A program made the translations under genes and the position numbers. A model generated the notes under the pieces. It had not been told where the DNA came from. It saw only the letters and a list, made by a program, of their open reading frames with translations, and did no database searches. From a virus: a DNA stretch of 31,464 nt. The DNA lies in the IMG/VR virus record IMGVR_UViG_3300047558_000066, positions 1 through 31,464 of that record, one strand, 5' to 3'. Shown in pieces: positions 21,319-26,472 of this stretch (within the stretch, counting starts at the first letter, position 1; each line of letters opens with the position of its first letter).

Positions 21319-21834
21319 ATGGCAAGTAAAAGTAAGATTAAAGGCAGTAGTTGGGAGCGTGATTGCGCAAAATTCCTAACTGAGCTATATGGAGCAACAT
21401 TTATTCGTAATATTACGGGTAGTGGCGCATACATCGGTGGTAAAAACATCACTCGTAAAGCAAATCTTACTGAGGGTCAAATTCGCAGTAGCAAGGGCGA
21501 CATTACGCCGCCTGATGACTGGGATCAGTTCAACGCTGAAGCCAAAAACTACGGCGAACTCGACTTTCACAACTTCTATGTGGGTTGTAGGCAACTAGAT
21601 GTGTGGTTAGAACAACTAATCACAGTCGCCGATTCAAATGACTTTAATATACTCATGTTTAAGATCACACGAAGAGGTAAATATGTTGCCGTTCAACCTA
21701 ATCAACACTTAACTTTTGTAAATTATACAGTGTATAATAGCAAGACGTTAGGTCAGTGGTACATCACTGATTTTGACGAATTCTTTGCTAACAATAGTAA
21801 AGTTGTTGAATCTCTATCTAAATCACTAAAATAA
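21319..21834 (+). CDS. PD-(D/E)XK-type nuclease, Holliday-junction-resolvase-like
   Basis: A 171-aa protein with the motif layout of small PD-(D/E)XK nucleases: an N-terminal helix with conserved Glu (SSWERDCAKFL, E13), an RNITGSGAYIGGKN segment, then the core GDI (D61) and EAK (E74, K76). This arrangement is seen in archaeal-type resolvases and in uncharacterised nucleases of T4-like phages. It lies 38 nt after gp46 in the same direction and may act on recombination intermediates together with gp47/gp46; that partnership is inference. Only a poor ribosome site (AGTAGAG) precedes the ATG. It could instead be a restriction-like or repair nuclease. Confidence 0.75.
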   Translation: MASKSKIKGSSWERDCAKFLTELYGATFIRNITGSGAYIGGKNITRKANLTEGQIRSSKGDITPPDDWDQFNAEAKNYGELDFHNFYVGCRQLDVWLEQLITVADSNDFNILMFKITRRGKYVAVQPNQHLTFVNYTVYNSKTLGQWYITDFDEFFANNSKVVESLSKSLK

Positions 21835-21841
21835 AACTATC

Positions 21842-21930
21842 GTTCGAACCACCGAGATAAAGGGGTCGATCTACTACAATTAGGTTTATATCAATACTGT
21901 TCGAACTGGCGAGATAAAGCGGTCGATCTA
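21842..21930 (+). repeat. Two tandem 32-nt covarying hairpins
   Basis: Copies at 21842-21873 and 21899-21930, starting 57 nt apart, in the 128-nt gap between the nuclease and the 92-aa gene. Both share GTTCGAAC at the left, an invariant loop GAGATAAA and GTCGATCTA at the right. The stems differ but stay paired: ACC(A)CC with GGGGT in copy 1, ACT(G)GC with GCGGT in copy 2. One pair flips from C-G to G-C and another becomes T-G. Outer TCG/CGA pairs extend both. Conserved loop plus compensating stem changes indicates a functional RNA element (protein-binding operator, processing site or similar). Confidence 0.75.
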
Positions 21931-21962
21931 TTCAAAATTAAATTCCCCATTTTTATCAAAAC

Positions 21963-22241
21963 ATGGCAAAGTTAGATTATCAACGTATTTCACGTGAAAA
22001 AATGCTAAAGACTAAACCAATAGTCAGTGATAAGCATGATTCTAGAAAACATATCGTCGATGATGACAAGCCAGTAAGTCTAAATGGTCCAGAATATGTA
22101 TTGAAGTTTGGCAAGTATAAGGGCAAAATGCTCAAAGACATACCAGATGAATATTTACATTGGACTATTATGAATGTTGATGATTCTACTGTTAATATGT
22201 TCGTCCGCGAACTACAACGCAGAGATCCTTCATTCAGATGA
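21963..22241 (+). CDS. DUF3820-like small protein
   Basis: A 92-aa protein whose C-terminal half has the DUF3820 pattern: LKFGKYKGKMLKDIPDEYLHW, in which the FGKYKG, DIP and YL-W residues are the family hallmark. The N-terminal 45 residues are charged and less ordered. Function of the family is not established; it occurs in phages and bacteria and is sometimes annotated as a putative quorum-sensing-regulated protein. No Shine-Dalgarno sequence is visible before the ATG (TTATCAAAACATGG). It sits between the tandem hairpins and the long structured non-coding region, and ends just before the latter begins. Confidence 0.7.
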   Translation: MAKLDYQRISREKMLKTKPIVSDKHDSRKHIVDDDKPVSLNGPEYVLKFGKYKGKMLKDIPDEYLHWTIMNVDDSTVNMFVRELQRRDPSFR

Positions 22242-22827
22242 TACTGCCGTATCCGTTATGAAAATAACGTAAGGGTTCAATCAAAGCGAAAGCGCGGACC
22301 CAGTCGATAGTCTGAACAATTAGTTCATACTGACTGAAGGTGAATATATTCACCAATAGAAACGTTGACCTGGCAACAGTTAAGCCGGCGGAGAAAGACC
22401 AAAGTGGCATACTGACCTCAATGTTCAAAGCATTGGGCTCATACACAACCTGTCTATAAACGAACAAGCCCCATGCGTAAACTCGGATGGATACACGGCA
22501 TCAATACCCCACTGCGGTCATATTATTGTGTATAAATTTGGGTTCTATCGGTGCTTCGGCGAACGTTCTACCTTGGTTGTGAAAAATAGCAACCGAACAG
22601 AAGAAAATTACAGGGGGGAGACCTTGAGCTACGTCTGCGTTATTTACAGCAGATGTGGTTCAAGTGTTTATGTTTCGCCTCGTTTCACTCGCCGAAACTC
22701 GCTGTCGTTCCGCTTCGCTTAGAACGACACGAATCGCTGAAGCAAAAGAAAATAGGTCAGAAGGCTCTGAAAGAGCCAATGATAAGACGGAACGGAACGA
22801 AGTGGAGTTCCTCTTCGAATGAGAGGA
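22242..22827 (+). ncRNA. Candidate large structured RNA (about 590 nt, many hairpins)
   Basis: The only long gene-free stretch in the window. I find at least 13 local helices. Examples: CGTTAT-GAAA-ATAACG (22254-22269); GGGTTC/GGACCC enclosing GC-GAAA-GC (22273-22301); AGTC/GACT enclosing TGAAC/GTTCA (22302-22335); GGTGAA-TATA-TTCACC (22339-22354); CTCAATG/CATTGGG with one wobble (22417-22437); ATACAC/GTGTAT (22491-22533); GTTC/GAAC around a GC-TTCG-GC hairpin (22542-22564); GGTTG/CAACC (22573-22596); a 16-bp stem with a 10-nt loop (22623-22664); GTTTCG/CGAAAC (22672-22698); an 8-bp stem TGTCGTTC/GAACGACA (22703-22729); GGCTC/GAGCC (22763-22777); GGAAC/GTTCC (22794-22811). GAAA and TTCG loops occur in plus-strand polarity, so the RNA is probably plus-strand. 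Ends are approximate. I could not assign a family. Confidence 0.6.
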
Positions 22828-23040
22828 TTAAAAGAAAGGAAGTTTTGTCTTCTTAGTAGTTTCCATATTGCCATCGATTATCTCATTGATGGCTTTGATT
22901 TCTTCATTAGTCATGTTCATGGCATCGGAATAGCTAACACCACCACGCATATACCAAGTTAATTGAATAACATTCTTGCGGATGTTATATATGCTTTGGA
23001 CCATTTCCTTGGTCAACTTCTCAACTTGGTCCATAGTCAT
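22828..23040 (-). CDS. Small tail-assembly-type protein downstream of gp26
   Basis: A 70-aa protein, second gene of the short leftward gp26 operon, 11 nt after gp26. It is helical and charged, with a central WYMRGGVSYSDAMNMTNEE and a basic TTKKTKLPFF end. I associate the YMRGG-SY-DAM pattern with small proteins encoded next to gp26 in T4-like phages, probably tail-assembly factors or chaperones, but a specific function is not established. Two in-frame ATGs (23040, 23034) are possible; neither has a good ribosome site, so coupling to gp26 translation is likely. Confidence 0.65.
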   Translation of the reverse strand: MTMDQVEKLTKEMVQSIYNIRKNVIQLTWYMRGGVSYSDAMNMTNEEIKAINEIIDGNMETTKKTKLPFF

Positions 23041-23051
23041 GTAGAGAAGTC

Positions 23052-23876
23052 TTAGGCGAAAAAATCAGTGAAATTTAGTTGTAGTGGTTGCTTGTAATCG
23101 TGACCGCAGTTGACACACTTGATTGAGATAGGCTTAGTGTCATTTTGTTCACGCAACTGCGCACTATATTCTCTGATAGCCTTTAGGGATTTGCTATCAC
23201 AGTTTACAAGAAACTCTTTGATGAATACTTTATCATTGACCATAGTTTCTGGCGTCTTGATATAGTCAATACACTGAGTAACAATATCATTGGTCAAGTC
23301 GTTCATTTTGTTGATGCCGTCTTCAAGCATCTTTTTCTTTTGTTCTTCGCCCTCGACAGAATCTAATGTAGCAATGATACGTTGAACTTCAAACTGCTTG
23401 ATACTGTTTCTGTTGATTTCAGCATATGTAAGAGGGCGAAACTTAATCTCTAACGGTCCTACAGTTAGGCGCTTTGAGTAATCAATGTCTTTCTTTTCCA
23501 TTAGTAGCGCAGTTAGATTGATGCCATACTTGCCGTCTTCTTTACAAGACGGGCAGTCGCTTTCCATCTCATAGTCTCCCTCAATACTGGCCGCTCTGAT
23601 AGCAATAATAACTGCTTCAACGTCAATATTGTTTAGTTGCCATGGATTTTTGATTGCTGGTATGCAGTTTTTGATAACTCTAACTACAGCATCGCCGTTG
23701 AACAGGGCGTCTGGAGTTCTGATAGCAATCTCATCTAAGTTGGTCATTGGATAGACTGCTAACTCGTCATTTTCCGGAACTTCTACAACTTCAGCACCAT
23801 AGTGTTTGCCTCCGGATGGTAGCTTGAAATACAGTGATGGAGTGCGAAAATACTGCTTTAGTGGGTTGTTAGACAT
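23052..23876 (-). CDS. 26: Baseplate hub protein gp26
   Basis: A 274-aa member of the T4 gp26 baseplate family (T4 gp26 is 208 aa), needed for hub assembly. Family-like features are the start SLYFKLPSGGKHY, the LDEIAIRTPDALFNGDA segment and four Cys in two knuckles: CPSC (108, 111) and CVNC (254, 257), likely to bind one zinc ion. The final LNFTDFFA is also typical. AAAGGA lies about 6 nt before ATG 23876. It is encoded on the minus strand, apart from the main baseplate block and divergent from the tape-measure-like gene. Confidence 0.85.
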   Translation of the reverse strand: MSNNPLKQYFRTPSLYFKLPSGGKHYGAEVVEVPENDELAVYPMTNLDEIAIRTPDALFNGDAVVRVIKNCIPAIKNPWQLNNIDVEAVIIAIRAASIEGDYEMESDCPSCKEDGKYGINLTALLMEKKDIDYSKRLTVGPLEIKFRPLTYAEINRNSIKQFEVQRIIATLDSVEGEEQKKKMLEDGINKMNDLTNDIVTQCIDYIKTPETMVNDKVFIKEFLVNCDSKSLKAIREYSAQLREQNDTKPISIKCVNCGHDYKQPLQLNFTDFFA

Positions 23877-23943: not shown

Positions 23944-26472
23944 ATGTCCGATAATATTGATGCGCAACGATTACAAGAAGCTATGGAAGCGTTTGTTCAG
24001 ACGCTTCATAATGGAGCATCTGGTGTAGAGACAGAGGCCAAACGCTTGGAGCGTGAAGCTAAGGAATTATCCGATACTCAGAAGCGACTCCAAGAAGAGT
24101 TTGATAGTATGTACAATTCTACATCAAAGGTCACTACTGGCATGACCGGTTTGATGAAGGGCATAAAAGACGGCGGTGGCTCATTCGCTGTTCTCAATGA
24201 CGTTGTTGGTCTGGCAACAAAAGCGGTAAGTGGCATATTGAGTATTGCCCCAGTCATTGGCGGTGCGCTAAAAGCACTTGGCGAAGCCGCTGGTGATGTT
24301 ACTAAAATGATGATCGACCAGTATCAGCAAAGCTGGACAGCATACAAAGATATTGCTAACGTTGGCATCGCTGACAGTTTTGAACACACAAGAGAGATTG
24401 TTTTAAATACTGGTCTAACTTTCAACGAACTAAGCAAAACACTCAAACCATCATCAAAAGCCCTATCAAACTGGTCTGGCACTGTATCAGGCGGCACTAA
24501 AGCATATCAACAAGTATCACGTGACTTAGAAAACGTTCGCAAAGATTTCAATGCGCTAGGCGTAAGTGCTACAGAATTTAGTGAAATGCAGTTGAAGTAC
24601 ATGGAGCAAGAAGGTCGCATGGGTCGTCAGAACCAGCGAAACTTGTCTTCAAACACACAAGAATACATTGAAAAGCTAACAACTCTAAGCAAGATGACGG
24701 GCATGCAAGCTAAAGACATGCAAGCCGCCCGTGATCAAGCAATGAGTGAAACTCGCTTCCGCTCACGACTAGACTCACTAAACAAAGAACAGCAAGAAGC
24801 CCTTCATGACATGAATGCCATGATTCAGCAATCTTCGCCTGAGTTAGCGCAAGGTTTCAGAGATTTAGTTGCGGCAGGTGGTGTTGCTACTACCGATGCG
24901 GCAAAAACATTGGTTCAACAAACTGGCGGTCAAGCTATCGTAGAAGTTAGAAAGATGTTGGGCAAGTCAAACCCTAACATGAATGATGTTCTAACTGGAT
25001 TGAACAATCTAAAAGACGCGGCCGGTAAAAGTTACAAAAACTTACGTGGCGTTGCTCAGTATGCTGGTGATGCTAACGTTACGCTACAAGGCTTAGGCAA
25101 AAACAGAGACTTTGCTACATCTGCTCGTTACATGGCAAGTGACGTTGATAAAGTTCGCAAGAGCATGAAAGCAAACGTTGACGGTACTAATGCTCAGACA
25201 AAAAAATTATCAGAAACAGAAATGAACTTGCGTGACGCTTCTATCAAGTTGTCACTATTCGCTACAAATGCTGAAATTGTCAACACTGCTATGGAGACAA
25301 TGAGCGAAGGTTTAGACTGGATCTCAGAAAAGCTGTTTGAACTCAGTGGTCAAGAACTACCAGAAGATTTCAAAGCACGTAGAGATGAACGCAAAGCAAT
25401 CGTTGAAGCCAACAAAGCTCGTAAAGAACTGACTAAAGCTGAAAAAGATGCTGAAAAAGATCAATCAGGCATCGACTGGGGCGCAAGTGCTGGTGAAGGC
25501 GGCATGGGAGGTTATGGTAGTAGTGCGCAACAAGAAGTTGATAAAAAACGTAGAGACCTTGAAGCGGCAGAAGAAAAAGCTAAAAAAGCGGCTGCTAAAA
25601 GACAAGAAGTTGCGGGCAAAACTCCACAAGAAAAACGTGCTGAAGCACTCAAGAACGCACAGTCAGCAACAGGCGGAACTTCCGGTGGCGGCGGTACTTC
25701 CGGAGGTGCACCTCAAGCCACACCAGCGCCAACGACACCAGCCGCACCAACGTCAGCTGCAACAACTGCACCAGCCGCACCAGCCGCACCAGCAGGCGAA
25801 GACGGCCAAGGCAAAAAAGACAAATCAAAAGATGCGTCAGCCCAAGCAGACAAAGTATCTCAAATACTGCGTGACGAAAAAGCTCTACAAGCATTGTTTA
25901 GTTTCGCAGGCGGTATCTCCGGCAACTTTGACAACTTCAAACGCTTAGATGAAGATATGAAAAAGCGTCTTGTATCAGCGGCGCTTGACTATCAAGATCA
26001 AGGCGGCGGCAAACTTAGAATCAATGCTGGTGCTAGAAGCTACGACGAACAAGTAAAGATTGCTAGTGGTCCTAGAGGAAAATGGGCCGCGCCTCCTGGC
26101 ACAAGTCCACACGAGAAGGGCCTAGCAGTAGATATTCAAAACTACAACGACAATAAAGCTATCGACGCCTTGACAAAATATGGTCTAACAAACCAAAAAG
26201 TAGCAGGCGAACCATGGCACTTTCAGAAAATATCGGCTAGAGAAGGCTTCGAAGGCTTCGTTGAGGGTCCGCAGGAAGGCTACAAGCCAGACATTGAGTT
26301 GCACGGTAGAGAAAAGGTCAAAATTGAAAAAGAGGGCGAGAATTCTACAGCAGAACTCATAAAAACTTTCAAAGAATTGATGACCGCTATGCTAGAAAAG
26401 CAAGACGATATGCTTGAGCACCTAGAAACCAGTGCTTACAACTCTGAAAAACTTGTTCGTGCTACTGTCTAA
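23944..26472 (+). CDS. Tape-measure-like tail protein with a C-terminal M15 peptidase domain
   Basis: An 842-aa protein. Residues 1-480 are mostly helical with heptad-rich stretches; a hydrophobic Gly/Ala segment at about 85-120 could insert in membrane, as in tape-measure proteins. A Pro/Ala/Thr/Gly linker covers about 575-625. Residues about 665-770 form a D,D-/L,D-carboxypeptidase-type M15 (VanY-like) domain: SPHEKGLAVD gives zinc ligands H723 and D730; GEPWHF gives catalytic Glu E756 and zinc ligand H759. The domain should cut peptidoglycan stem peptides and so help the tail through the cell wall. No clear Shine-Dalgarno site. Tape-measure identity is inference from shape and neighbours; the peptidase domain is clear. 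Confidence 0.8.
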   Translation: MSDNIDAQRLQEAMEAFVQTLHNGASGVETEAKRLEREAKELSDTQKRLQEEFDSMYNSTSKVTTGMTGLMKGIKDGGGSFAVLNDVVGLATKAVSGILSIAPVIGGALKALGEAAGDVTKMMIDQYQQSWTAYKDIANVGIADSFEHTREIVLNTGLTFNELSKTLKPSSKALSNWSGTVSGGTKAYQQVSRDLENVRKDFNALGVSATEFSEMQLKYMEQEGRMGRQNQRNLSSNTQEYIEKLTTLSKMTGMQAKDMQAARDQAMSETRFRSRLDSLNKEQQEALHDMNAMIQQSSPELAQGFRDLVAAGGVATTDAAKTLVQQTGGQAIVEVRKMLGKSNPNMNDVLTGLNNLKDAAGKSYKNLRGVAQYAGDANVTLQGLGKNRDFATSARYMASDVDKVRKSMKANVDGTNAQTKKLSETEMNLRDASIKLSLFATNAEIVNTAMETMSEGLDWISEKLFELSGQELPEDFKARRDERKAIVEANKARKELTKAEKDAEKDQSGIDWGASAGEGGMGGYGSSAQQEVDKKRRDLEAAEEKAKKAAAKRQEVAGKTPQEKRAEALKNAQSATGGTSGGGGTSGGAPQATPAPTTPAAPTSAATTAPAAPAAPAGEDGQGKKDKSKDASAQADKVSQILRDEKALQALFSFAGGISGNFDNFKRLDEDMKKRLVSAALDYQDQGGGKLRINAGARSYDEQVKIASGPRGKWAAPPGTSPHEKGLAVDIQNYNDNKAIDALTKYGLTNQKVAGEPWHFQKISAREGFEGFVEGPQEGYKPDIELHGREKVKIEKEGENSTAELIKTFKELMTAMLEKQDDMLEHLETSAYNSEKLVRATV

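Follow-up and report, generated by a model that had tools for sequence, protein, structure and literature searches.

We find that the viral DNA analysed here (31,464 nt, hereafter the window) almost certainly carries a conserved RNA at positions 22339-22827. Comparison with related sequences shows that this RNA, which we call type A, is non-coding, that it is read from the + strand, that selection acts on its base pairs, and that its relatives and RNAs of other types share one genomic slot. Our preferred reading, to which we give a little less than an even chance in the absence of expression data, is that a structured non-coding RNA acting in trans is encoded by a gene of its own at 22339-22827, perhaps beginning at 22244. 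Linkage to a promoter and a number of three to five copies per genome are established for type C only, there too by sequence analysis.

Results

Coding content and folding of the locus

The candidate region (22242-22827, + strand) lies between two stop codons, and most related loci have a gap with few ORFs at the syntenic position. On its 5′ side is the stop of a 92-aa protein (21963-22241, +) matching ExoX-like_C and DUF3820/QSregVF_b; on its 3′ side is that of a convergent 70-aa ORF (22828-23040, − strand), syntenic in most relatives, which precedes the baseplate-hub gene (T4_baseplate, phrog_150; 23052-23876, − strand) that we used as the anchor to find relatives. A first-pass annotation, made from the sequence alone, had placed the region between a DUF3820-like gene and a gp26 operon. 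The family matches add ExoX-like_C for the upstream gene and identify the downstream protein as a baseplate hub. Further upstream, family matches identify a PDDEXK_15/RusA-like nuclease gene (21319-21834, +), and gp46/gp47 recombination genes adjoin the RNA copy in the window. Searched as a query, the 92-aa DUF3820-like protein found no relative. An 842-aa ORF adjoining the hub gene (23944-26472) has no PHROG match.

The ORFs of the region reach at most 64-77 aa, and searches of PHROG and Pfam with them gave no match; protein coding was therefore rejected, and the coding signal that would have refuted an RNA was not found. The region folds strongly on the + strand (MFE −196 kcal/mol against −156 ± 5.5 for shuffles; z −7.2, 0/20), whereas three coding stretches from the same window, taken as controls, gave + strand values of z −2.0 to +0.6. 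The first-pass description of a hairpin-rich stretch without a credible ORF is thus borne out. The signal is stronger in the 3′ half (22534-22827, z −8.3 alone, as against −2.9 for the 5′ half), and the family core 22339-22827 has a z of −5.0. The reverse strand folds less strongly (z −4.2). The alignments contain G-U pairs, which would be A-C on the opposite strand, so that the RNA is read from the + strand, the polarity first proposed.

The RNA would be about 490-590 nt long, its 5′ and 3′ ends within the window being undefined. A sigma70-like promoter (TTAACT-18-TATAAT, 21709-21738, +; TTGACA-18-TATAAT in the relative L091) lies inside the upstream nuclease gene and is a possible source of transcription, although it is a weak candidate, as promoter matches in the window are no more numerous than in shuffles. 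Two 43-nt direct repeats (TTCGAAC...GAGATAAAG.GGTCGATCTA; 21831-21873 and 21888-21930, +) precede the RNA in the window's lineage. Their 15-nt core is confined to the RNA locus in a 184-kb relative, and it occurs once in L095.

Type A relatives and their helices

Relatives were gathered through the hub protein, which gave 80 IMG/VR loci; blastn of the RNA itself had not reached the slot. Several of these loci, plus more sequences found with two DNA patterns, make up type A. For the 5′ domain of type A we built a covariance model (R3) on nine sequences, leaving out the window and L087. It matches the window at 22357-22503 (36.3 bits, E 3.2e-7), which makes the window a member of type A, and also matches L087 (E 1e-6). 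Compensatory changes are found in 7/19 pairs of the type A helices; the number of cells with both sides changed was reached in 0/500 shuffles, and sliding controls were far lower. Covariation among homologues from the same slot, by which the first-pass annotation could be judged, is therefore present at a level that shuffled controls do not reach. Such controls do not correct for the relatedness of the sequences, and covariance-model E-values are rough.

In an alignment of 11 type A sequences the family core extends over 22339-22827 (+ strand, as are all the helices below). Upstream of it, the lineage-specific hairpins GATAC/GTATC, CGTTA/TAACG, GGGTTC/GGACCC and AGTC/GACT (22244-22335) are known from the predicted fold only; they are absent from L087, L091 and L098 and, being without homologue, have no covariation support. 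The 16-bp stem at 22623-22664, likewise a feature of the predicted fold, is not common to L088, L093, L095 and L101, where unrelated sequence stands in its place. Both were left out of the family core because they are absent in relatives. An RNA extending over the whole of 22242-22827, as first proposed, is therefore sustained only in that the region is non-coding and folded, with a core starting at about 22339, and the 16-bp stem that had been singled out is present but lineage-specific.

The core opens with a hairpin, GGTGAA/TTCACC (22339-22354), replaced in relatives by ACAGGT/ACCTGT or AGTC/GACT. The 5′ domain matched by R3 (22357-22503) follows, with covariation in alignment A6 and the stems P1 (22370-22374/22384-22388), P2 (22396-22399/22452-22455) and P3 (22404-22406/22444-22446). 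The most conserved type A block is P6 (22540-22573), an internal-loop hairpin with a GC-UUCG-GC tip and a closing stem GGGU/ACCU (AGAGU/ACUCU in L101), which has a 33-nt match to L014-L019. Next come the hairpin GGTTG/CAACC (22575-22594), instead of which L088 has another (CCAGA/TCTGG), and a G6 run (22613-22618) kept in 11/11 type A sequences. Individual pairs are supported in the hairpin GUUUCG/CGAAAC with its UCGCUUCGCUC-like loop (22672-22698), where both sides are changed in 5/6 pairs across five type A variants (0/500 shuffles). The 8-bp stem UGUCGUUC/GAACGACA (22703-22729), already pointed out in the first-pass annotation, shows a compensatory change in L098, which is 95% alike in the 3′ half and in which CGTAC/GTACG replaces CGTTC/GAACG. 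Two further hairpins rest on the alignment: GGCUCU/AGAGCC (22763-22777; GCCAG/CUGGC or GUCAUC/GAUGAC in relatives) and, at the 3′ terminus, GGAAC/GUUCC (22789-22811), beyond which the end of the RNA is not defined.

Recombination at the type A locus

Compared with the window, L087, L091 and L098 are 97-100% identical in the upstream nuclease gene and the repeats and 95-99% identical in the 3′ half of the RNA, and their 5′ half has been replaced. The hub gene is shared at 98% between L087 and the window; it is not shared by L091 and L098. As judged from these alignments, the type A RNA locus is a recombination hot spot in the window's lineage. The replaced 5′ half of L087 still scores with the type A model, which implies that the architecture was kept. 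The DUF3820/ExoX-like gene (21963-22241) and the 5′ half of the RNA are missing together from these three relatives, between flanks 97-100% identical, as if exchanged jointly.

No other contig matched an exact pattern made from the 5′ domain of the window, and the window RNA had no blastn match among 50,697 phage records; with types A and B against the same records, there was one chance match only. Type A is present in one copy per contig, in contigs of up to 184 kb.

Other RNA types in the same slot

By its hub protein, the window belongs with the Rak2-like jumbo myoviruses, in which the slot lies between gp46/nuclease genes and the baseplate-hub operon. Most of the ~80 loci have there an ORF-poor gap of ~410-820 nt, between the upstream nuclease gene and a small ORF, and this slot holds at least three RNA types: A (the window), B (metagenomic) and C (cultured phages). 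Most loci that do not carry type A carry type B, which has a supported core with changes on both sides in 19/37 predicted pairs. Scanning viral contigs for a 20-nt motif of type B gave at least 120 matching stretches. The RNA is found once per contig, in contigs of up to 524 kb, and the type B pattern had no match in 84,980 species genomes.

Cross-searches with the models R1 (type C), R2 (type B) and R3 gave no convincing link between the three types, and neither R2 nor R1 matched the window, which thus does not qualify as type B or type C. A likeness between B and C (GUUGC ... GCAAC with a crossing stem, forming one pseudoknot) was noted by eye only. If borne out, these observations suggest that a genomic slot can stay fixed and occupied by an RNA even when the sequence of that RNA is exchanged beyond recognition. 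In L003 (3900-4650) the slot holds what is apparently a fourth sequence type, with weak similarity to type A hairpins.

Type C in cultured jumbo phages

Type C is carried by 121Q, PBECO4, Munch, CBB, BF and XaC1, and by RaK2 outside the slot. A gap of ~680-840 nt without annotated genes is found at or near the slot in 121Q, Munch, CBB, XaC1 and BF; the RaK2 hub slot has only 365 nt between genes and no copy. Matches to the Munch gap occur at 254 places in 58 phage records, in most cases 4-5 per record. With R1 we counted four copies in 121Q, five each in Munch, CBB, XaC1 and BF, and three in RaK2, all on the + strand of the record, and PBECO4 carries about four; no convincing copy was obtained in PA5oct, Atu_ph07, XacN1 and SCTP-2. 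The five Munch copies all lie in gaps between annotated genes (in the other genomes only the flanks of the slot copy were inspected). The part matching the Munch gap is annotated as hypothetical proteins in some other records.

Two pseudoknots covary in type C. Its 3′ crossing pseudoknot is paired in 100% of cells, with both sides changed in 7/10 pairs, and its 5′ domain has such changes in 20/31 pairs. For a second pseudoknot the sequences' own pairing exceeded that of all permutations (0/2000), but it is not clear in four XaC1 copies. All 25 type C copies inspected (25/25) have, upstream of the core, a TG[A/G][A/G]AC-like element followed by TATAAT/TATACT, the first element being less regular in a few. 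This putative promoter is close to a second promoter class of CBB, which has the −35 element TGAAACG and whose examples mostly precede a region with many genes for DNA synthesis (PMC5259590).

In five genomes the type C copies are spaced more evenly than expected by chance (P for variance 0.0015-0.026), but common ancestry means that these genomes are not independent. Copies of the same slot group together across BF, CBB and Munch (e.g. BF2-CB2-Mu2, BF3-CB3, BF4-CB4), and those of 121Q and of XaC1 group genome by genome, a pattern that suggests old slots plus within-genome exchange. The RaK2 copies L199 and L203 share long identical stretches despite a distance of 88 kb, which suggests gene conversion.

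Discussion

Relation to known RNA classes

GOLLD is often found near tRNA islands, GOLLD and ROOL form an RNA-only nanocage of several chains, and ROOL has a size similar to that of the new RNA. At gathering score no Rfam family, GOLLD and ROOL included, matched anywhere in the window; nor did any match 21780-22950 when E values up to 10 were admitted, and only chance matches were obtained at E up to 5 with the type B and C loci (ten related loci and five cultured phages). The Rfam models of group I and group II introns, HEARO and RNase P did not match either, although highly derived members could be missed. Unlike a group I or group II intron, the loci examined are intergenic and interrupt no gene. 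A category of large elaborate phage RNAs with unknown function already exists, with GOLLD and ROOL, and GOLLD has a constant 3′ part and a variable 5′ part (PMC12286853). The resemblance to these RNAs that had been remarked on at the outset lies in size and phage origin and, for type A, in a constant 3′ and an exchangeable 5′ part; it is a likeness of form rather than of shown function. The new RNA is shorter than GOLLD, is multi-copy in its type C, and shows no tRNA-island neighbourhood within the 31-kb window, in which ARAGORN found no tRNA or tmRNA. With ROOL it shares its standing as a phage RNA of unknown function with pseudoknots; its conserved sequences are others, and it has a fixed place by gp46 and the baseplate hub instead of tRNA islands.

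In the jumbo-phage and structured-RNA literature available under open licence, supplements excluded, we found no description of these RNAs. Within that literature we rate types A, B and C as a new RNA class, because no known family matches any of them and because a dispersed multi-copy arrangement such as that of type C is unreported there for GOLLD or ROOL. The first-pass suggestion of an undescribed structured RNA, neither GOLLD/ROOL nor an intron, is thus supported by the lack of Rfam matches and by the covariation.

Possible functions

If the RNA acts in trans, it would be made in the middle (DNA-replication) phase, for which there are no expression data, would fold compactly, in type C with pseudoknots, and may act as a scaffold or binding partner, either of phage or host proteins or of further copies of the same RNA. 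The clustering of type C copies by slot in some genomes and by genome in others is expected if all copies must fit one partner. However, their even spacing suggests a position-dependent rather than a purely trans role, and types A and B have only one copy per contig, which also speaks against action in trans. Since the three models do not cross-match, the case for carrying type C features over to the window depends on synteny; the promoter evidence, in particular, comes from type C and is weak for the window, whose own candidate is no better than shuffles.

The best rival to action in trans, which we nonetheless consider rather unlikely, is a replication-origin RNA, that is, a transcript that folds, remains hybridised to the template strand downstream in an R-loop and serves as the primer for DNA synthesis. 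Such RNAs have precedents. ColE1 RNA II is a folded plasmid transcript that forms an R-loop on its template and primes DNA synthesis, and at the T4 origins oriF and oriG an unwinding region accompanies a middle promoter. Any comparison of the new RNA with these concerns a possible function only and rests on a structured transcript or a middle-type promoter near replication and recombination genes, with a G-run; there is no known sequence relation, and origin activity is not shown for it. The even spacing and kept orthologous places of type C would fit an origin, as would a promoter class found mostly upstream of a region with many DNA-synthesis genes, the gp46/gp47 genes and tandem 43-nt repeats beside the window copy, and the G6 run kept throughout type A. 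Against this, the GC-skew change is positive at 4/5 CBB copies but not consistent in XaC1, AT-richness downstream of the copies is inconsistent, types A and B are single-copy even in very long contigs, and RaK2 lacks the slot copy. The fuller proposal is that jumbo-phage genome replication is started by structured RNAs of a new class, whose copies are evenly spaced and promoter-driven and whose pseudoknotted transcripts act as primers, with types exchangeable in the slot; it must be called unlikely.

Action in trans is also to be weighed against a role in cis, as a structured 3′ or 5′ untranslated region, a processing site or a barrier between convergent operons. Types A and B do lie directly 3′ of the nuclease gene and face a convergent gene, and 4/5 Munch copies stand just before a gene on the same strand. 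We find this improbable, as the slot copy has no same-strand gene downstream, the RNA far exceeds the size and conservation required of a terminator and contains no terminator-like site in the window, and type C copies have their own promoter. A ribozyme, a degenerate self-splicing intron or a mobile element could account for large size, pseudoknots (in type C), invariant unpaired bases and dispersed copies; against this, Rfam gave no group I, group II, HEARO or RNase P match, and the copies are old and slot-conserved and, where examined, intergenic. We hold this reading highly improbable. Finally, a recombination hot spot might be thought to leave mere debris with chance hairpins and no function as RNA, an explanation contradicted by covariation in all three types and by synteny and to which we attach very little credence.

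If the RNA gene is real, three to five copies of it, large and conserved, are present in cultured jumbo phages of E. coli, Salmonella, Klebsiella, Pectobacterium and Serratia, and the function of large phage RNAs, a question open since GOLLD and ROOL, becomes testable in laboratory hosts. The hub-slot gaps of 121Q, Munch, CBB and BF, and the gaps around all five Munch copies, contain no annotated gene.
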